Shown piece by piece: positions 9,343 through 42,764 of a stretch of 49,637 bases of DNA. The stretch comes from Fructobacillus fructosus KCTC 3544 (lineage in GTDB: Bacteria > Bacillota > Bacilli > Lactobacillales > Lactobacillaceae): contig NZ_JQBH01000012.1 of the NCBI RefSeq assembly GCF_001438695.1, positions 1 to 49,637 on the forward strand, given 5' to 3'. The notes under the pieces were generated by a model, which saw nothing but the letters and a program-made list of their open reading frames with translations, was not told the DNA's origin and did no database searches. Both the position numbers and the translations under genes were made by a program. The stretch's first letter is position 1. The number at the start of each line of letters is the position of its first letter.

Positions 9343-10629
9343 TTATGGCATCAAATTAATCAAATCAACCCCTTCAATTTTGAGGTCAACACCAAGACCA
9401 CGGAGCTTTTCGGCAATCCGGTCATAGCCACGTAAAATATGCGAAGCGTTATCAATCACTGTCTGCCCATCGGCCATCACGGCCGCAATCACCAAAGCAG
9501 CCCCTGCTCGAATCTCGGCCGCTTCCACAGTCGTCCCAACGAGTCGTTCTGAATGGTTAACCTTAATTTCCCCAGGATTGAGAGAAGAGACATCAGCCCC
9601 CATCCGGCGCAATTCGGCAATGTGACGAATCCGCTTTGGATAAATCGTTTCAATGATGGTCGATTCACCTTCTGCCAAGAACAACAATGGTGTGATTGGC
9701 TGTTGCAAATCAGTTGCGAAACCAGGATATGGCATGGTTTTAATCGATACAGGCTTCAAATTACGAGAAGGACCAATGTAAATCGATTCATCACCAATTT
9801 GCATATCAACGCCCATCTCCATCAATTTTGATGTGTAAGATTCCAAGTGCTCAGGAATCACGTTTTGAATCGTGACCCCGTCCCCAAAGGCTGCAGCCAA
9901 AGACATATAAGTTCCAGCTTCAATTCGATCTGGAATAACCGAATGTGTATTCTGAGCCTTCAACGTATCGACCCCAGTAATCCGAATCGTATCCGTTCCT
10001 GCCCCACGAATATTAGCGCCCATGTTATTCAAGAAAGTCGCAATATCGATAATCTCAGGCTCCTTGGCCACGTTTTCGATAATTGTTTGTCCTTCAGCAC
10101 GTACGGCGGCCAAGATGATGTTAATTGTTGCCCCAACGGAAACCGTATCGAGGGCAATCCGGGCACCCTTCAAACCGTTTTCCGTTGCATCGATGTGAAT
10201 CACATCGTTTTCTTCTGTCACCTTGGCACCAAGGGCCTCAAAGCCCTTGATGTGCTGATCAATTGGACGGGAGCCCAAGTTATCACCACCAGGAAAAGTC
10301 ACCGTTGCTCGACCAAAGCGACCCAGCAAGGCCCCCATGAAGTAATACGAAGCACGCAAGGACTTAATCGCGGTTGCTGGTAAGGGAGCTTCTCGAATGG
10401 TGGTTGGATCAATCGACAAATCGCCATCATGAAAATTCGAATGAACGTTCATGGCCGCCAAAATGTATTGTAAGTTCTTAACGTCCAAAATCTGTGGTAC
10501 GTTGTCAAAGTTCACTGGCGTATCTGCCAAGATAGCGGCTGGAATCAGCGCTACCGTTGAGTTTTTGGCACCACCGATGGTCACTTGACCAGCGACTTTG
10601 TGGCCACCATTAATAATAATTTTTGCCAT
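9343..10629 (-). CDS. murA: UDP-N-acetylglucosamine 1-carboxyvinyltransferase with Asp at the fosfomycin site
   Basis: First committed step of peptidoglycan synthesis: transfer of enolpyruvate from PEP to UDP-GlcNAc. The family signature GGAKNS is at residues 19-24, and the two-fold inside-out barrel length (428) is normal. The catalytic loop reads FPGGDNLGSRPIDQH: Asp116 stands where most MurA enzymes have the PEP/fosfomycin-reactive Cys115. In other bacteria Cys-to-Asp keeps activity and gives fosfomycin resistance. It is a single gene between rpmE2 and pheT with its own start; upstream GTAGGATTCGCCCT holds a modest AGGA site. Confidence 0.94.
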   Translation of the reverse strand: MAKIIINGGHKVAGQVTIGGAKNSTVALIPAAILADTPVNFDNVPQILDVKNLQYILAAMNVHSNFHDGDLSIDPTTIREAPLPATAIKSLRASYYFMGALLGRFGRATVTFPGGDNLGSRPIDQHIKGFEALGAKVTEENDVIHIDATENGLKGARIALDTVSVGATINIILAAVRAEGQTIIENVAKEPEIIDIATFLNNMGANIRGAGTDTIRITGVDTLKAQNTHSVIPDRIEAGTYMSLAAAFGDGVTIQNVIPEHLESYTSKLMEMGVDMQIGDESIYIGPSRNLKPVSIKTMPYPGFATDLQQPITPLLFLAEGESTIIETIYPKRIRHIAELRRMGADVSSLNPGEIKVNHSERLVGTTVEAAEIRAGAALVIAAVMADGQTVIDNASHILRGYDRIAEKLRGLGVDLKIEGVDLINLMP

Positions 10630-10698
10630 AGGGCGAATCCTACTTAACTATCGTTTTACCCCAATTATACGGGCTTTTCTTTCTACTGACAATTGCAA

Positions 10699-13158
10699 TT
10701 AACGAATTTCAGCACCAAGCTGCTTAGCCAGGGCCTCCGTGACCTTAGCAAAGTCCATTGTTACCTTTTCTTCGACCAACGTGTCGTGCTGGTCCTGATA
10801 CGTTAATTGGTAAGCTAATGACTTTTTACCATCTGGTGTTCCCTGACCCTTATAGAGATCAAAGAAAGAAACGTCCTTCAAATACTGTCCAGCGCTCTCC
10901 CAAATAACGTCTAAGACCTCTTGGTTGGTAATCTGGTCATCCAGTAAGATGGCCAAATCTCGCGTGATTTGTGGGTAACGGGAAATTGGTTGGTAAGTAA
11001 CCTCACGCTTTGATAAGAGAATAATTTCTTCGAGATTTAATTCAAAGGCAAAGATAACCGGCAACTTTTGCTTCGCCACAAACTCAGGATGAACTTGTCC
11101 AAGATAACCAATGTAAATGTCACCGGCATAAACATCAGCCGTTTGTCCTGGGTGCATGTTGGCGTGTGCCTTCGACTGCTTAAAGGTTACCTGATCCACT
11201 CCGATGTTTTCAAGATAAGTTTCAACACGGCCCTTTAGCGCATAAAAATCAACTTCTTCTTCCTTTTCACCGGTTTCCCAAGTTGATTCAGCCAGTGAAC
11301 CGACCAAAACGGCGGCAATGTGCTCTTCTTCAACCGGCTGCTTGGCCGCATTGTCATTTAAGAAAATACGTCCTTGCTCATAGAGCGCAATGTTCTTGAC
11401 GGAGCGGGCCACGTTATAAGCCACATCGTCAATTAAGCCAGAAATCAAATTTTGACGGGCAACCGTTCGGTCAGAAGACATCGGGTAGTCCAATGCCAAG
11501 ACGGGATGCTTCCCCATCATGTTAAAGGCCGTGGCCTTTTCTGGTGTCATCAAGGCATAAGAGATGGCCTGGTCAAAGCCGAGTGATTCGAAAATTCGCC
11601 GTGATGCTCGGATCTTTTTCTGACGACGTGTTAAATCACCAGCCGTTGATTGCCCATCAATCAAAGCGGTTGGTAAATTATCATAGCCATACAAACGGCC
11701 GACTTCTTCAACAAGGTCAGCTGGAATCGTCAAATCTGTTCGGCGACCAGGTACCGTTACCTTTAACCGACCATCGTTGTTTGCAACGGTCAAGTTCAAC
11801 TTTTCGAGCAAATCAACAACCGTTTCATCTGACAAAGTCGTGCCTAGTACTTGATTAATGCGAGACACGGTTGTTTCAATGACCGTTTCCTCAATGTTAT
11901 CAAAGCCAGCCAGTGCCTGACCCTTGGCCAGCGTGGCATCGCTAGCCTTCGCCACCGCATTGGCTGCTGATTGCAAGGCAGGTTTTGTATTAGTCAAATC
12001 AATCCCACGTTCCAAACGGAAGGACGATTCGGAACGCAACCCATGACGACGAGCGGCTTGGCGAATGAAACTTGGGTTATACTGACCGGCCACTAATAGG
12101 ACGTTTTTCGTTGAATGACTCACCTTAAACATCGGATCCATCGCAATACCAGCCAATGCAATGACTTGTTCCCCAGCGACTAATACAATGTCTTTACCAG
12201 AACGAAGCGCCATGGCTTCTTCGCCATCCCCTTGTCCCAATACTTCACCTTCCTTAGCTAAGCGGACGGTAATGACTTTGTCAGCCAAGCGATCCAAATC
12301 AAAGGCGGCCAATGGCTGTCCGGTTGCCAAAAGCCAATAGTGCATGGCATCAACCACATTGTTTTCTGGCTTAATGCCAGAAGTCCACAGACGCGATTGG
12401 ATAGCAAGCGGGCTTTTATCAACCGAAACGCCATTCACAACTGACAAGGCAACGCCCGTTGCAAGACCTGTTTCCCCTATCTGAACGGTTGCTTGGTCAT
12501 CAGCCAAAAAGGCGGCTTCCTTAGCCCCTTTGTCCGCAACTTCTGCCACCTTTTGGCCTGTCATAGCAGCCACTTCATAAGCCATTCCACGCATCGAAAG
12601 CAAGTCAGCGCGGTTCGGCGTTAGGTCAGTATCAATCATTGGATCCTTCAGGCCAAGCACTGCCAAGGCATCATCCCCGGGATTCACGCCATCTTGTTCA
12701 GCGAAGACATGGATACCATTTTCGATTGGTTCGGGGCAAACGGCATCTGGCAAACCAATTTCTTGCAAGGCAGCAAGCATTCCGTAAGAAACTTCACCAC
12801 GAAGTTTCGCTTTCTTGATCTTCACCAGCTCTCCTGACTCGCGATCAATAATGTGGGCGCCAACCGTTGCTAAAATAACCAACTGACCCTCGGAAACGTT
12901 GGGCGCTCCCGTGACAACCTGAATCTTTTCCTGCCCATCAAATACCTGAGTGATTTTTAGGTGGTCAGAATCCGGGTGGTCCTTCAACTCGTCAACACGA
13001 ACAACGACCAAGCCGTCTTGCTGAGCGGCAACTTGACCGACTTCTTCAATTTCGACGGCCGTTAACTCAATTTGTTGAGCCAGGTCCAACACCGCCTGCT
13101 TGCTCAAATCCAATCCAGGCGTTAAGTATTCATTCAACCATTTTAAATTCGTCTTCAT
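10699..13158 (-). CDS. pheT: Phenylalanine--tRNA ligase beta subunit
   Basis: Beta subunit of the alpha2-beta2 synthetase. It has an N-terminal EMAP/tRNA-binding domain (about 40-150), the B3/4 editing domain that hydrolyses mischarged Tyr-tRNA(Phe) (about 210-390, with RHGLRSESSFRLERGID near 372), a B5 DNA-binding-like domain, a pseudo-catalytic core and the C-terminal ferredoxin-fold anticodon-binding domain (YPQITRDLAILL near 728). The length of 819 is typical. It follows pheS with a two-base gap, so the two are co-translated under the pheS T-box. Confidence 0.97.
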   Translation of the reverse strand: MKTNLKWLNEYLTPGLDLSKQAVLDLAQQIELTAVEIEEVGQVAAQQDGLVVVRVDELKDHPDSDHLKITQVFDGQEKIQVVTGAPNVSEGQLVILATVGAHIIDRESGELVKIKKAKLRGEVSYGMLAALQEIGLPDAVCPEPIENGIHVFAEQDGVNPGDDALAVLGLKDPMIDTDLTPNRADLLSMRGMAYEVAAMTGQKVAEVADKGAKEAAFLADDQATVQIGETGLATGVALSVVNGVSVDKSPLAIQSRLWTSGIKPENNVVDAMHYWLLATGQPLAAFDLDRLADKVITVRLAKEGEVLGQGDGEEAMALRSGKDIVLVAGEQVIALAGIAMDPMFKVSHSTKNVLLVAGQYNPSFIRQAARRHGLRSESSFRLERGIDLTNTKPALQSAANAVAKASDATLAKGQALAGFDNIEETVIETTVSRINQVLGTTLSDETVVDLLEKLNLTVANNDGRLKVTVPGRRTDLTIPADLVEEVGRLYGYDNLPTALIDGQSTAGDLTRRQKKIRASRRIFESLGFDQAISYALMTPEKATAFNMMGKHPVLALDYPMSSDRTVARQNLISGLIDDVAYNVARSVKNIALYEQGRIFLNDNAAKQPVEEEHIAAVLVGSLAESTWETGEKEEEVDFYALKGRVETYLENIGVDQVTFKQSKAHANMHPGQTADVYAGDIYIGYLGQVHPEFVAKQKLPVIFAFELNLEEIILLSKREVTYQPISRYPQITRDLAILLDDQITNQEVLDVIWESAGQYLKDVSFFDLYKGQGTPDGKKSLAYQLTYQDQHDTLVEEKVTMDFAKVTEALAKQLGAEIR

Positions 13159-24510: not shown

Positions 24511-24616
24511 TAAAGAGTGAGAACCTAATCTTCACCTTTTCTAATGTTACAATTACTTTGACTGTATATTCTAATTTACTAAAAAATTTGAACTGATTCC
24601 AAAAGGAGTGATTCAT

Positions 24617-27600
24617 ATGATGAATCATCAATCACCATTTAATTATCAAAATAAAGAACGAAAAGTGTTGCATAAGGTTAAAAAGAACTGGGTTGTCTTG
24701 TCCCTAACTTCCTTAACACTGTTTGGTGCTTCCTTGGCCATGCCTGAGGCTGCTAGTCACGCTCTCCCCGGCAGCGCTTCTTTTGTGAGCGCCGATAGTC
24801 ATACAACCTTTGGACAAGTTTCATACACCTATGATACTTCTACTGATACGCTAACCTTTACTAGCGGTGGTACGCTGCCAACGGCCAGCACCAGTCGCTT
24901 GAGTAAGCAATTCCCACATCTGAAGCATATTGTCTTCACCGAACGTGTTCAGGCACCGGCAGATTCAACGAATTTGTTTGCGCAATTGGTGTATTTACAA
25001 GACATTACTGGCCTCGACAAGATAGATACTAGTCAAGTGACAAGTATGAACGCCATGTTTAACAGTGATTATGCGTTGACTTCGCTCGACCTGTCGACTT
25101 GGAACACGGACAAAGTCACGGACATGTCCTGGATGTTTACGGGAGATAAGGCACCCAGTTCCCTAAACGTTAGCCGCTTTAATACGGCAAACGTGACCAA
25201 CATGATGGTCATGTTCAACGGCATTGGCGTCTCAAGCCTTGATGTTTCCAATTTTAACACCGGAAAAGTCACGAACATGTCGGATATGTTCAGTTGGATG
25301 CGTAATCTAAAGTCACTTGACCTTCGTTCTTGGGATACCAGTAACGTGACGGTTATGGACTATATGTTCCGGGCATCGTCTTCTCTTTCTTCGCTGAACA
25401 TTTCTTCCTTTAATACAACACATGTGACTAGCATGAAAATGATGTTTGATCAAATTGGCAACGGCCAACTGATTAACGTCAAGTTACCAGAAGCTCATTT
25501 TGATAACAATGCCGATCTTGGCGACCGCTATTCAACCATTATGGCGGTCAACGGTGGTACGTTAGTTAATCCAAAGGGAAACATTCTTTCCACTGCAGAT
25601 TACCAAAGTCTCTTCAACACCGGTAAGCAAACTGCTGATTGGTATGTTTGGGGAACATTAGCTACACAAACCGAGCAAAAAACGGTTACCCGAACAATCA
25701 ATCAGGTTGATGCCCGAGGTCAACAAATTGAGGGCACCACACCGATAACGCAAACGCTTCACTTTCACCGCACGAAGACGACTTTACCGGGTACTGACTA
25801 TGCCCAATACGGCAACTGGGTAGCTGATGGCGATTCCGATTCAGCTTTTGAAGCTGTTACCATTGCCCAAACACTGGATAACAACCGCTATCAAAAACCA
25901 ACGCTCAACGGCCAATCAGTAACCACTGTCGAGCGTCTCCAACCATCCCTAGACAACAATAGCTCTCAAACGCTAGCAGTGAACATCGTCTACGCGGATG
26001 GCAGTGAGAGTACCACCCAAAATAAGCAAGTCACCCGCACCATCAAGTACCAAAATCAAGCTGGTCAAAAAATTAAGGATGATCGTGTTGAAACCCTTCA
26101 CTTTCATCGAACAGCCAGCACCAATTTAGTGACTGGCCAAGTCACGTACTCTAATTGGCAGGCTGATTCTGCAAACGACCAACAGTTTAAGACAGTACAA
26201 CTCCCTCAAACGATTGACAATAAGTACTGCATACCAACGTTGAATGGAAGGGCAGTCCAAACGATTACCGGTTCGCTGCCAACGCTCGACGATCAGAATA
26301 ACCAAAGTGAAATTCTCACGGTGGTCTATGCTGATCAAACAGAGGTTGCAACGGAGCATCAATCAATTTCACGTACCATTCACTACCAGAACCACGATGG
26401 TCGAGCAATCAAAAAAGATACTGTTCAAACCATCAACTACCACCGGACGGTTACCAAGAACTTGGTGTCGGGAGAGGTAATTTATTCTGAGTGGATGCTA
26501 GACGAATCGTCCTTAAACGAATTTAGTGCCATCTTCCTTCCTCAAACAATTGACGGTCGCTATCAAAACCCTCAGTTAAACGGGGAACCAATCAGCGAGA
26601 TTGACCCTGAAATGCCAATCCCTGATGCAGGTGGTCAGTATAAAAACCAAGTTATCACTGTTGTCTATGACGGCATTGTTCGCACGTCAACTCAACACAA
26701 AAGCGTCATGCGCACCATTCATTATCAAAATGAGGATGGTCAAACAATTGCTGAAGATACAACCCAGCGCGTCAACTACACGCGAACGGTTCGTTCAAAC
26801 TTAGCAAACGGAACAGTCGAATACGGTGCTTGGCAGCCGGTAAATGTTTCTGACAACCTATTCAACGCTGTCACGATTCCTTCTTCTATAAAGAATCAGT
26901 ATGATCAGCCGACTTTAAATGGACAGTCTGTTCAGGAAATCAAAACTGAAGCACCCAAGCTCACGGATTCCGACGAGGATCAACAAGAAAGCTTGGTTGT
27001 AGTGTACGAGAAAAAGAATGAACCAACTCCCCCTGTAAAGCCGGATAAGCCAACTACCCCAACACCGCCTGTTTTGCCCGACCAACCGGTTGTGCCAGTC
27101 ACACCCGAACCGCCGGTGCAGCCGGATAAACCAGTAGTTCCGAACACACCACAACCGGTTGAACCAAATAAACCAGTAGTTCCGAACACACCACACCCGG
27201 TTGAGCCAAATAAACCCGCTCCACAGGATGTGCCAACAAGTCCAATTGAACCGCAACAACCTGTTACACCTGATACACCGGTTGCTCCTGAAGTACCGGT
27301 TGCTCCCGAAGTACCTGCTATACCTGTAAATCCGGTTCAACCCGTGATACCAGTCACACCCGAACAACCCGTTCAACCTGAGCTACCAGCCGCTCCTGAT
27401 CAACCCGTTCAACCGGAAACGCCGGTAACTCCCGAACAACCGGCACATCCTGAGAAACCAGAAGTGCCTGAACAACCTGTCCAACCTGAAACACCGCTAG
27501 TGCCTGAGCAATCGACAATAGCTGGTATTGCTAGACAACCAGTTGAACCAGACACAGCCGCCTCTTCGACTACCCCTGTACCTAGTGAACAACCGGGTAC

Positions 27601-27895
27601 ACCTACTATTCCAGCTATCCCTGAAATGCAAGAAACGCCCGAGCAATCCGCGGATTCAGAAAAGTCTGACATGACTAACGGTTCCTCACAGTCGGCATCA
27701 AAGAATAGTAATCACGATGTCCCAAACGCGAACTCGGACTCAGCGGCTGTTGAAAATGAAACACCAAAATCAGCGAAGTATCTAACGACCAATAACAACC
27801 GAAAATCAATTGATACGATTATCAAAACATTACCTTTCATTGCAGTCATTCTTGCCTGCATTCTCTTCTTAATTTCAAAGAGACCGAATCGCTAA
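24617..27895 (+). CDS. Large surface protein: BspA-type LRRs, four MucBP-like repeats, proline-rich stalk
   Basis: A 1092-residue exported adhesin-like protein. In order: a KxYKxGKxW-like signal (HKVKKNW near residue 25 then a hydrophobic core); BspA-type DUF285 leucine-rich repeats (units such as SLDLSTWNTDKVTDMSWMF, about 110-300); four repeats of about 110-120 residues of MucBP/Mub-B2 type, each with RTI.Y.N..G and HFHRT or NYTRT cores (about 350-795); a proline-rich stalk with PVxP and VEPNKP units (about 800-1000); then a C-terminal membrane segment and a basic tail (KRPNR). No LPxTG occurs before the membrane segment; the place reads KYLTTNNN. I start at ATG 24617, eight bases after AAGGAG. 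Likely binds mucin or other glycans. Confidence 0.88.
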   Translation: MMNHQSPFNYQNKERKVLHKVKKNWVVLSLTSLTLFGASLAMPEAASHALPGSASFVSADSHTTFGQVSYTYDTSTDTLTFTSGGTLPTASTSRLSKQFPHLKHIVFTERVQAPADSTNLFAQLVYLQDITGLDKIDTSQVTSMNAMFNSDYALTSLDLSTWNTDKVTDMSWMFTGDKAPSSLNVSRFNTANVTNMMVMFNGIGVSSLDVSNFNTGKVTNMSDMFSWMRNLKSLDLRSWDTSNVTVMDYMFRASSSLSSLNISSFNTTHVTSMKMMFDQIGNGQLINVKLPEAHFDNNADLGDRYSTIMAVNGGTLVNPKGNILSTADYQSLFNTGKQTADWYVWGTLATQTEQKTVTRTINQVDARGQQIEGTTPITQTLHFHRTKTTLPGTDYAQYGNWVADGDSDSAFEAVTIAQTLDNNRYQKPTLNGQSVTTVERLQPSLDNNSSQTLAVNIVYADGSESTTQNKQVTRTIKYQNQAGQKIKDDRVETLHFHRTASTNLVTGQVTYSNWQADSANDQQFKTVQLPQTIDNKYCIPTLNGRAVQTITGSLPTLDDQNNQSEILTVVYADQTEVATEHQSISRTIHYQNHDGRAIKKDTVQTINYHRTVTKNLVSGEVIYSEWMLDESSLNEFSAIFLPQTIDGRYQNPQLNGEPISEIDPEMPIPDAGGQYKNQVITVVYDGIVRTSTQHKSVMRTIHYQNEDGQTIAEDTTQRVNYTRTVRSNLANGTVEYGAWQPVNVSDNLFNAVTIPSSIKNQYDQPTLNGQSVQEIKTEAPKLTDSDEDQQESLVVVYEKKNEPTPPVKPDKPTTPTPPVLPDQPVVPVTPEPPVQPDKPVVPNTPQPVEPNKPVVPNTPHPVEPNKPAPQDVPTSPIEPQQPVTPDTPVAPEVPVAPEVPAIPVNPVQPVIPVTPEQPVQPELPAAPDQPVQPETPVTPEQPAHPEKPEVPEQPVQPETPLVPEQSTIAGIARQPVEPDTAASSTTPVPSEQPGTPTIPAIPEMQETPEQSADSEKSDMTNGSSQSASKNSNHDVPNANSDSAAVENETPKSAKYLTTNNNRKSIDTIIKTLPFIAVILACILFLISKRPNR
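27128..27211 (+). repeat. 42-bp tandem duplication in the proline-rich stalk
   Basis: Two nearly identical 42-bp units starting at 27128 and 27170 encode KPVVPNTP, Q or H, PVEPN. The high identity points to recent duplication and to likely length variation of the stalk between strains. Confidence 0.85.
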
Positions 27896-40676: not shown

Positions 40677-41321
40677 TTATAACATCCAGCCTAATATCCC
40701 CACCGCATCATTTAAGAAATGAACGCACATTGGCGCCCGCAAAGAATTTGTTAGGCGAAAGAGCTCGTTTAACACCAAACGATTAATAATCAAGCCTATA
40801 ACTAGCCAAACATTCATAGCATAAACGGTATAGTGCAGGTAGGCAAAGAAAATTGACGAAAGGAAACTAGCCATATACCAACCTGTTGCTGTTCGCTTTA
40901 AAAGAATATACATCGTTAATACAATTGGTATCATCAATAATTCTTCGTTAATAGCAGAAAACAAAAATTGTCCCGCCCACCACAATTTCTCTGGTAAACG
41001 ATGTAAATGGGCAAAATTGTGTGTACTAACGTGCTCAAAAAGATGATGATTACCGGTGGCTGCACTTACGATCATCATATAGAATCCATCAAATAACTTC
41101 ATCATGACAAAAACGAAAAACGGAAACCAAATCGGAGCATGCATTTTTTTAAATAAATTTTTTAACCCCGCTGAACCAAATAACAGTAGCGTAATTAAGA
41201 GTCCAGTTAAAAAAGTACCCAAATCCTCACCAACAACTGGACGGGCTAGTGATCAAGAAAAACCGATTATTAGTAAAACTACGAGGGGAAGATTCTTATA
41301 ATTTTTCAATTGCACGTTCAT
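40677..41321 (-). pseudogene. CPBP-family membrane protein (bacteriocin immunity-like) interrupted by TGA
   Basis: From the ATG at 41321 (GGAGGAAATTG upstream) the frame encodes a 214-codon paralogue of the neighbouring CPBP gene, with the same start (MNVQLKN against MNLQLKH) and the same length. Codon 23 (41255-41253) is TGA where the intact copy has TGG (Trp). Downstream the frame is open with the CPBP motifs NEELLMIP near residue 129, the FAYLH histidine, and HFLND. A weak in-frame TTG at 41222 could give a 181-residue product lacking the first membrane segment. Most likely a recent nonsense mutation; a sequencing error or read-through cannot be excluded. Confidence 0.8.
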
Positions 41322-41370: not shown

Positions 41371-42015
41371 CTAAAGCATCATAAAAAACAGGTTACAAGT
41401 ATCGAATAGAAAGTGGACATACATCGGTGTTCGAATTGAATTGGTTAAACGAAAAACTTCGTTGAGAAGAATTCGTCCAATCATCAAGAGTCCAATGACC
41501 CAAACATTGAGGGAGTAGACATTGAAATGGAGGGAAGCGAATAAAATTGCTGAAGCAAGACTGGCTATCCACCAAGCTAGTCTTGTTCTTTTTAGCAAGA
41601 TGAATACTAGTAAGACAAGAGGAATCATCAACAATTCTTCATTAACCGCTGAAAATAAAAAACGCACTCCATACCAAATTTTCTCGTCAAGTCCATGTAA
41701 ATATTTGACTTGATTAACCATTTCATGTTTAAACAAGTAACGATTACCTGTACTTGTCACAGCAATTATGGTGTAAAATATTTCAATCAAAAAATACATT
41801 ATAAAGCAAAAGATTGGGAACCAAAAGGGCCCTTTCATTTTTTGAAAGAGTCCTTTCAATCCAGCAATTCCAAATAAGGAAAGCGTGATAAATAAGCCAA
41901 CTATAAACGTAACCAATGACTTACCAATAAATTGCTGCTCTAATAACCAAACTAGCCCAATCAAGCTGAAAAGGACAAATGGTATGTTATGAGGATGCTT
42001 TAGTTGAAGATTCAT
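41371..42015 (-). CDS. CPBP-family intramembrane protein, candidate bacteriocin immunity protein
   Basis: A 214-residue protein with about seven membrane segments and the CPBP/Abi (PF02517) motifs: NEELLMIPLVL near 130, LFASLHF near 170, HFLFDTC near 201. In lactic acid bacteria these proteins commonly sit beside class II bacteriocin genes and give immunity, probably by intramembrane proteolysis. The start at ATG 42015 follows AGGAGAGTAGCT. It lies 103 bases downstream of two double-glycine peptide genes on the same strand, behind a short attenuator-like hairpin. Confidence 0.85.
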   Translation of the reverse strand: MNLQLKHPHNIPFVLFSLIGLVWLLEQQFIGKSLVTFIVGLFITLSLFGIAGLKGLFQKMKGPFWFPIFCFIMYFLIEIFYTIIAVTSTGNRYLFKHEMVNQVKYLHGLDEKIWYGVRFLFSAVNEELLMIPLVLLVFILLKRTRLAWWIASLASAILFASLHFNVYSLNVWVIGLLMIGRILLNEVFRLTNSIRTPMYVHFLFDTCNLFFMML

Positions 42016-42058
42016 AGCTACTCTCCTGACAAAGTGATAATTTTTTTCAATACATAGC

Positions 42059-42083
42059 AAAACGACTATTGTACCAATAGTCG
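42059..42083 (-). terminator. Weak terminator/attenuator between peptide genes and immunity gene
   Basis: A nine-base perfect stem (CGACTATTG / CAATAGTCG, three-base loop) is followed on the minus strand by only TTTT. The short T tract suggests partial read-through into the CPBP genes. Confidence 0.6.
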
Positions 42084-42118
42084 CTAGCTAAACTAAGCCC
42101 TTTAATAATTTCTATCCT

Positions 42119-42259
42119 TTAAAATAACTTATTGAAAAAACCCTCAATGAAGTCCCTTCGGTCCTTAGCCGTAGTGTGATTAGTTGGACGCCAAATCATT
42201 CCGCCACTAATTGTGAGTAATTCATGATCATTCAATACTTGTACCTGCCATTTTTTCAT
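42119..42259 (-). CDS. Double-glycine leader peptide, second bacteriocin peptide of a pair (candidate)
   Basis: A 46-residue gene. Residues 1-20 form a double-glycine leader with every consensus position filled: Leu at -12, Glu at -8, Leu at -7, Ile at -4 and GG at -2/-1 (LNDHELLTISGG). The predicted mature peptide is 26 residues: MIWRPTNHTT, a charged AKDRRDFIEG centre and a hydrophobic FFNKLF end. AGGGGGC lies six bases before the ATG. It starts 17 bases after the stop of the other leader peptide gene. The mature part has no GxxxG. I do not recognise a named homologue. Confidence 0.75.
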   Translation of the reverse strand: MKKWQVQVLNDHELLTISGGMIWRPTNHTTAKDRRDFIEGFFNKLF

Positions 42260-42276
42260 AATAGCCCCCTATTTCA

Positions 42277-42414
42277 TTACAGTCCAAGATGAAACACCAC
42301 CGCGAAAGCCATATGAGCTGTGGTACCAAAAGCTTGCCCAGCACGGTAAGTCGACCGACTACCTCCGTTGATCAACTGTAAACTGTTCTCGTTCATTTGT
42401 TCAAAGTAACTCAT
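42277..42414 (-). CDS. Double-glycine leader peptide, first bacteriocin peptide of a pair (candidate)
   Basis: A 45-residue gene. The 18-residue leader ends SLQLINGG (Leu -7, Ile -4, GG). The 27-residue mature part is cationic at its N-terminus (SRSTYRAG), carries a GxxxG motif (GQAFG) and ends hydrophobic (AFAVVFHLGL), as seen in class IIb peptides such as the PlnK type. GGAG sits five bases before ATG. A stronger site (AAAGGAG) precedes an upstream ATG at 42425 whose tiny frame ends in a TGA that overlaps this ATG. A promoter with direct repeats lies 60-90 bases upstream. Confidence 0.75.
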   Translation of the reverse strand: MSYFEQMNENSLQLINGGSRSTYRAGQAFGTTAHMAFAVVFHLGL

Positions 42415-42459
42415 TTTTTCTCCATGTGACAATCTCCTTTCAGATTTTCTTGGTCATAA

Positions 42460-42479
42460 GACTTAGTTCTGACTTAGTT
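42460..42479 (-). repeat. Direct repeat AACTAAGTC x2 at the bacteriocin promoter start site
   Basis: Two perfect nine-base copies (42471-42479 and 42460-42468, minus strand) with an 11-base period lie from the -10 into the predicted +1 region, where a repressor or activator dimer could bind one helical face. Confidence 0.65.
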
Positions 42480-42736: not shown

Positions 42737-42764
42737 AAAAAAAGTCCCCCGCTTAGCGGAGGAC
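42737..42764 (-). terminator. Terminator after the GntR-family gene
   Basis: Minus strand GTCCTCCGC / GCGGGGGAC with a TAA loop, then TTTTTTT, eight bases after the stop codon. Confidence 0.9.

Follow-up and report, generated by a model that had tools for sequence, protein, structure and literature searches.

The question raised by this locus is whether two short, adjacent open reading frames (ORFs) of Fructobacillus fructosus KCTC 3544 encode the two halves of a class IIb (two-peptide) bacteriocin, as had been proposed in an earlier note on this DNA. The stretch analyzed, termed the window, comprises 49,637 nucleotides and lies on contig C4 of a 1.48-Mb genome in 45 contigs. The two ORFs, termed alpha and beta, are both located on the minus strand, with a gap of 17 bases between them, and a putative ribosome binding site was read from the sequence ahead of each.

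42277..42414, minus strand: alpha precursor of 45 amino acids, with a double-glycine (GG) leader of 18 residues and a mature part of 27 residues containing GQAFG
42119..42259, minus strand: beta precursor of 46 amino acids, with a GG leader of 20 residues and a mature part of 26 residues having a C-terminal RRDFIEGFFNKLF
42420..42423, minus strand: Shine-Dalgarno-like GGAG of alpha, 5 nt ahead of the alpha ATG
42265..42270, minus strand: Shine-Dalgarno-like AGGGGG of beta, 5 nt ahead of the beta ATG

The alpha precursor consists of the leader MSYFEQMNENSLQLINGG and the mature part SRSTYRAGQAFGTTAHMAFAVVFHLGL, and the beta precursor of the leader MKKWQVQVLNDHELLTISGG and the mature part MIWRPTNHTTAKDRRDFIEGFFNKLF; both leaders have hydrophobic residues at −7 and −4 and end in GG. 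A scan of the 49.6-kb window for ORFs of 33 to 70 codons with a Shine-Dalgarno-like stretch and a double-glycine leader pattern detected exactly two matches, alpha and beta, bearing out the earlier description of adjacent 45- and 46-codon minus-strand genes. Application of the same scan to 150 first-order Markov sequences of equal length produced a mean of 0.49 matches and no adjacent pairs (0/150). The small size of these ORFs, and the presence in another genome (G228) of a syntenic CPBP gene pair without such ORFs, would fit chance ORFs adjoining CPBP genes of some other role, such as membrane proteases. The absence of adjacent pairs from the random sequences and the matches of both mature parts to relatives beyond 1000/1000 shuffles, described below, render this explanation extremely improbable.

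Full killing by class IIb bacteriocins requires the two peptides in combination. Two different, adjacent double-glycine precursors are a characteristic of class IIb systems, and alpha and beta have this arrangement. The mature parts are unrelated, as previously stated, with 1453 to 1897 of 2000 shuffles scoring as well when the window alpha was compared with four betas. One or several GxxxG or GxxxG-like motifs are present in every class IIb bacteriocin characterized so far, according to excerpts of one article (PMC6382864). The GQAFG of alpha, also recorded in the earlier note, is such a motif; none was read from the sequence of beta. The helix amphipathicity of alpha was attained by only 19 of 500 shuffles. 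Beta had been described as amphipathic, a description that did not hold, as its helix was no more amphipathic than those of its own shuffles (263/500 reached its value). A four-codon mini-ORF (MEKK; 42411-42425) with its own AAAGGAG at 42440-42434 was observed ahead of alpha; its stop codon overlaps the alpha ATG (ATGA), an overlap that could possibly represent translational coupling or be due to chance.

Searches with class II bacteriocin models were successful in part: alpha exceeded the cutoff of the short bacteriocin-leader model TIGR01847 (bacteriocin_sig) of NCBIfam (16.6 versus 15.7 bits), and its match to Pfam Bacteriocin_IIc (E of 0.0033; 17.8 bits) was below the cutoff of 27.1. The plantaricin peptides PlnF and PlnJ are also below every NCBIfam cutoff, and an absence of family matches therefore says little.

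Relatives of the pair were detected by several searches. The window alpha produced three matches among 397 genomes of the family (E ≤ 0.01), namely itself, Fructobacillus papyriferae M1-10 (G041; locus on NZ_JAAMFI010000001.1) and Bombilactobacillus thymidiniphilus (G178). In F. papyriferae, the genes for beta and alpha are followed in the same row by those for a CPBP protein, a C39 exporter and an accessory protein; in B. thymidiniphilus, alpha and beta are accompanied by a CPBP gene with a broken frame in the displayed copies. The alpha-beta-CPBP locus of the latter species was observed as inverted copies near both ends of the 1.49-Mb record, with four beta places and a frameshift in one alpha copy; these copies could be either a terminal inverted repeat or an assembly artefact. 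Plasmid Lp16I of L. plantarum 16 and plasmid p4 of L. pentosus KW1 each contain alpha, beta and CPBP genes, with p4 additionally containing its own exporter and an HlyD-type gene. The plasmid peptides are annotated as hypothetical or as ComC/BlpC leader peptides, and a direct comparison of the window alpha with the plasmids yielded no match. Related alpha/beta/CPBP loci were, in all, found in three genera, with one in Fructobacillus adjoining its own C39 exporter.

A profile of three betas had eight matches in 395 family genomes (E ≤ 0.01): three were of the window-type family (the window included), two were PlnF of plantaricin loci (G258, E of 1.3e-4; G322, E of 7.8e-3) and three (G150, G013 and G309) were unconvincing and were left out as relatives. 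A five-alpha profile had 32 matches in 393 genomes (E ≤ 0.05), a mixture of true and false members that included PlnK of G258 (E of 0.0022). Seven of these loci were inspected (L085 to L088, L092, L099 and L100). Four of them (L085, L092, L099 and L100) had at least two GG-type ORFs and then an ORF of 210 to 222 residues, identified by size and position and not by a family scan; this arrangement was not clear in the other three (L086 to L088). With a five-beta profile, a sample of 355 genomes from the order, not necessarily including the known relatives, gave matches only to the window and to G433, the latter being unconvincing and left out after inspection of its locus. Two other types of match were also left out: a beta match in G212 (E of 0.037), which is antisense to an adenylation-type gene, and alpha-profile matches in five genomes outside the family (four from genus g43, one from g59), which are leader peptides of other sequence.

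In order to score the mature parts, profiles were built from those of four relatives, with the window left out, and each score was compared with those of 1000 shuffles of the same sequence. On the alpha profile, the window alpha, PlnE and PlnK were each above 1000/1000 of their own shuffles; PlnF obtained no score and PlnJ was reached by 337/1000 shuffles. On the beta profile, the window beta and PlnF were above 1000/1000 and PlnJ above 994/1000 shuffles; PlnE and PlnK were reached by 622/1000 and 708/1000, respectively. Each window peptide was recognized by the profile of its own side and not by that of the other. Other Fructobacillus peptides of class IIb type also obtain scores on the alpha profile, and one of them (G194_4, 12.4 bits) exceeds the window alpha (11.2 bits).

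Direct comparisons with the plantaricins were weak, 79/1000 and 37/1000 shuffles being as good for alpha against PlnE and PlnK, and 93/1000 and 253/1000 for beta against PlnF and PlnJ; the plantaricin link therefore runs via the relatives. A profile search of the PDB placed PlnF (E of 0.89) and PlnK (E of 0.48) second in lists of three and two, respectively, neither match being significant. The mature sequences, which the earlier note did not recognize, are related through the relatives' profiles, each half to the matching half of the plantaricin EF/JK group. Judged by these sequence comparisons, the mature peptides are diverged members of that group. In place of the GFFNK of the window beta, the corresponding motif is GFIDG in F. 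papyriferae, GFYHG in B. thymidiniphilus, GFFHG in both plasmids and GFIHG in PlnF; the window beta may be either a diverged or a damaged partner.

Downstream of beta are a hairpin and two CPBP genes.

42058..42090, minus strand: hairpin between beta and CPBP1, a possible attenuator
41371..42015, minus strand: CPBP1, PlnL-like, probable immunity gene, 214 amino acids, intact
40677..41321, minus strand: CPBP2, about half identical to CPBP1, with an in-frame TGA at 41255-41253 and an open piece at 41222-40677

CPBP1 matched the Rce1-like family (E of 1.5e-7) and, in a single comparison, PlnL of the plantaricin locus, with 27% identity over 181 residues (E of 5e-15); the match to PlnI extended across 96 residues (E of 6e-5). 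The motifs of CPBP1 are EELLMI, FASLH and HFLFD. Both CPBP1 and PlnL (EELLMI and EEVGMA) lack the Arg of EExxxR and keep FxxxH and HxxxD; PlnI has EEYAFR. PlnI and PlnL give protection in the plantaricin EF and JK systems, according to excerpts of a review (PMC8538875), and a CPBP (Abi) protein related to one or other of these is a feature of such loci that the window shares. By its similarity, CPBP1 is the probable dedicated immunity gene beside the peptides. The second gene is interrupted by TGA at its 23rd codon, and its open piece matches the Rce1-like family (E of 3.1e-9); of the two downstream immunity-type genes originally described, one is therefore intact and PlnL-like and the other is not intact. 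A CPBP pair without peptides was observed in G228 (L068 2845-4144), in the neighborhood corresponding to that of the window genes and on the opposite side of the adjacent ATPase gene, and is possibly an immunity-only locus.

The earlier view of the arrangement as that of a class IIb bacteriocin is sustained by the related loci in three genera, the half-specific profiles and the similarity of CPBP1 to PlnL. Matches to ComC (E of 0.15 and, for beta, 0.026; both weak) and to the EntF induction factor (E of 0.084) would alternatively be consistent with pheromones of the ComC/BlpC/EntF type, which induce other genes and are not a killing pair. These matches, however, are mostly within the leader and reach only 12.3 and 14.8 bits against a cutoff of 20.4 for ComC and 13.2 bits against 35 for EntF. 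Control by a pheromone, a kinase and a response regulator encoded close to the peptides is a feature of the plantaricin EF/JK group. No kinase or response-regulator gene was noticed in the window ORF list, which was read by eye and not by a family scan of all ORFs, and the two LytTR proteins of the genome, which we take to be response regulators, are both encoded off the window contig. The linkage of two peptides to a following PlnL-like gene fits a bacteriocin, and the relatives occur in exporter operons with CPBP genes, making the pheromone explanation very unlikely.

A single promoter had been proposed for the pair, and this was not supported: a promoter scan found 8 sites, against 7.4 expected, with none upstream of alpha on the minus strand. 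A perfect 9-base direct repeat, GACTTAGTT (plus strand), with 11-base spacing was observed upstream of alpha at 42460-42479 and is possibly a regulator site. Another upstream element, AGGGGGCTGATNTA, is common to this pair and a second pair of the same genome, described below; as good a stretch was shared by 61/500 shuffles, and the element was not used. The fold of 42045-42118, containing the hairpin between beta and CPBP1, had an energy of −17.9 kcal/mol (z of −2.74; 0/200 shuffles as good), and the predicted hairpin may lower read-through.

The alpha, beta and two CPBP genes form a cassette between a GntR gene and an ATPase gene, the latter presumably HerA-like, and this cassette was present at the site only in the window genome (1 of 13 Fructobacillus genomes).

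42744..42764, minus strand: terminator-like stem after the GntR gene, with similarity to the empty sites of relatives ending just after it

The order at this site is GntR-ATPase-YoaK-like-MetI in G041, G212, G194, G244 and G173 and GntR-ATPase-CPBP-CPBP-YoaK-like in G228. In the other six genomes, the site stretch contained GntR and MetI (only the MetI end in G259), with no match to a cassette gene or to the ATPase gene. DNA similarity stops just past the GntR terminator (~42738) in five of six compared relatives and at the GntR end in G228, and similarity to relatives resumes inside the ATPase gene. The G+C content in 500-base windows was 0.336 to 0.384 in the cassette versus 0.376 to 0.482 in the surroundings. 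These sequence features suggest that the cassette was likely acquired by this Fructobacillus lineage; no mobile element was identified. Elsewhere in the window, at 24608-27895, is a surface-protein-like ORF of 1095 amino acids with blocks of repeats and, ahead of a C-terminal hydrophobic stretch, an extended proline-rich region.

As the earlier note had anticipated, the exporter is elsewhere in the genome. The only C39 peptidase domain found was on contig C1, in an exporter of 721 residues (TIGR01193, 952.6 bits, over the cutoff) followed by an accessory protein (TIGR01000, 361.1 bits, over the cutoff). The genome thus contains the exporter and accessory protein typical of class IIb systems, unlinked from the peptide genes, and the C1 exporter is predicted to export the window pair. 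Matches to TIGR01193 over the cutoff were obtained in 5 of 13 Fructobacillus genomes. Leader peptides were detected near the exporter in G126 (two), G194 (four), G228 (four) and G041 (alpha by the leader filter and beta by similarity); some of those beside the C39 exporters of G126, G194 and G228 (L070, L071 and L072) resemble other class IIb types. The exporter is 3′ of the same exonuclease gene in the window genome, G041 and G194. For the C1 exporter, the leader filter found no cargo peptide in 20 kb (locus L002), and a reading of the upstream region (10100-10700) found only a 62-codon hydrophobic ORF. This filter misses some leaders, for example those of the betas of G041 and B. thymidiniphilus, and so a deviating peptide beside the C1 exporter may have been overlooked.

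The same genome contains two more GG-leader ORFs, encoding RSIAYQVGYTCGRLVRSIVMGR and MGNRGLVLGRAVSQFAHGFCDGLLGK, on contig C23.

C23 ~60,755-61,060 (L108 5756-6061), minus strand: second pair, located 3′ of truA and of a small gene resembling an oxidase

This pair was found with the alpha profile (E of 1.4e-4). Each peptide outscored 500/500 of its own shuffles on the profile of its own side and did not do so on that of the other side, and no CPBP-like ORF was seen beside the pair in the displayed locus. We tentatively suggest, at somewhat less than an even chance, that one cargo-less exporter on C1 serves two remote plantaricin-like pairs (C4 and C23) and that the modules for peptides, immunity and export are reshuffled separately among Fructobacillus species, leaving, for instance, the CPBP pair of G228 devoid of peptides.

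The location of the exporter on another contig, the interruption of CPBP2, the absence from beta of the GxxxG of its relatives and the restriction of the cassette to 1 of 13 genomes at this site could, alternatively, be signs of a decaying class IIb cassette, descended from a working plantaricin-like bacteriocin and no longer making an active product. Both peptide frames, their leaders and their ribosome binding sites are, however, intact, as are CPBP1 and the exporter, and we regard decay as unlikely, if the most serious of the alternatives. It is highly probable that alpha and beta are class IIb structural genes of the plantaricin EF/JK kind, gained as a cassette with a PlnL-like CPBP gene between the GntR gene and the ATPase gene; the best reading of the pair is a new, diverged class IIb bacteriocin with an unlinked exporter.

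This putative bacteriocin shares with plantaricin EF the order of two GG-leader peptides and then a CPBP gene and, via the relatives' profiles, the fit of alpha to PlnE and of beta to PlnF. It differs in having shorter mature peptides (27 and 26 versus 33 and 34 residues) of weak direct similarity, a beta without GxxxG, an immunity protein closer to PlnL than to PlnI (the EF immunity protein) and an unlinked exporter, with no pheromone regulation seen. Plantaricin JK is similar in its immunity protein, PlnL, including the lost Arg of EExxxR, and in the recognition of PlnK by the alpha profile, but PlnJ is only weakly placed on the beta profile (6/1000 shuffles as good) and is not matched directly by the window beta (253/1000). 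Plasmids Lp16I and p4 have the same alpha-beta-CPBP order and an alpha of the form SR/K..Y..GY..G, whereas their betas resemble PlnF far more closely than does the window beta and p4 carries its own exporter. The F. papyriferae M1-10 locus (L010) is of the same genus and has related alpha and beta peptides, a CPBP gene and an exporter in the same position as that of the window genome; it differs in its beta-alpha order, the presence of all parts in one operon, a CPBP protein of the EELVFR type and a beta that keeps GFIDG.

A mechanism can be proposed in which the alpha and beta precursors would be cut after GG and exported by the C1 exporter; the mature peptides would pair as helices in the membranes of closely related bacteria, causing leakage that depends on a receptor, with CPBP1 protecting the producer. 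The pairing and receptor use are proposed by analogy with known two-peptide bacteriocins, for which excerpts of two articles describe membrane-helix pairing via GxxxG-like motifs and the use of receptors (PMC6382864, PMC6854853).

The window pair was not noticed in excerpts of the literature on Fructobacillus bacteriocins, L. pentosus KW1 and CPBP or two-peptide immunity. In a BAGEL4 survey covering 24 Fructobacillus genomes, as excerpted, F. durionis was the only species with reported bacteriocin genes, and F. papyriferae M1-10 was scored as 'No' (PMC9934391); a contig of this strain nevertheless holds a peptide-CPBP-exporter operon. The failure of PlnF and PlnJ to reach any NCBIfam cutoff could account for such loci being overlooked. 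Three aspects of the present system are unusual: its peptides are encoded away from the exporter, a second pair is located remotely, and a related operon occurs in a strain negative in the excerpted BAGEL4 survey (PMC9934391). These findings place plantaricin EF/JK-type pairs in Fructobacillus and, if active, the window pair would test how far the two halves can diverge, whether a beta lacking GxxxG works and whether one exporter can serve unlinked peptide genes.
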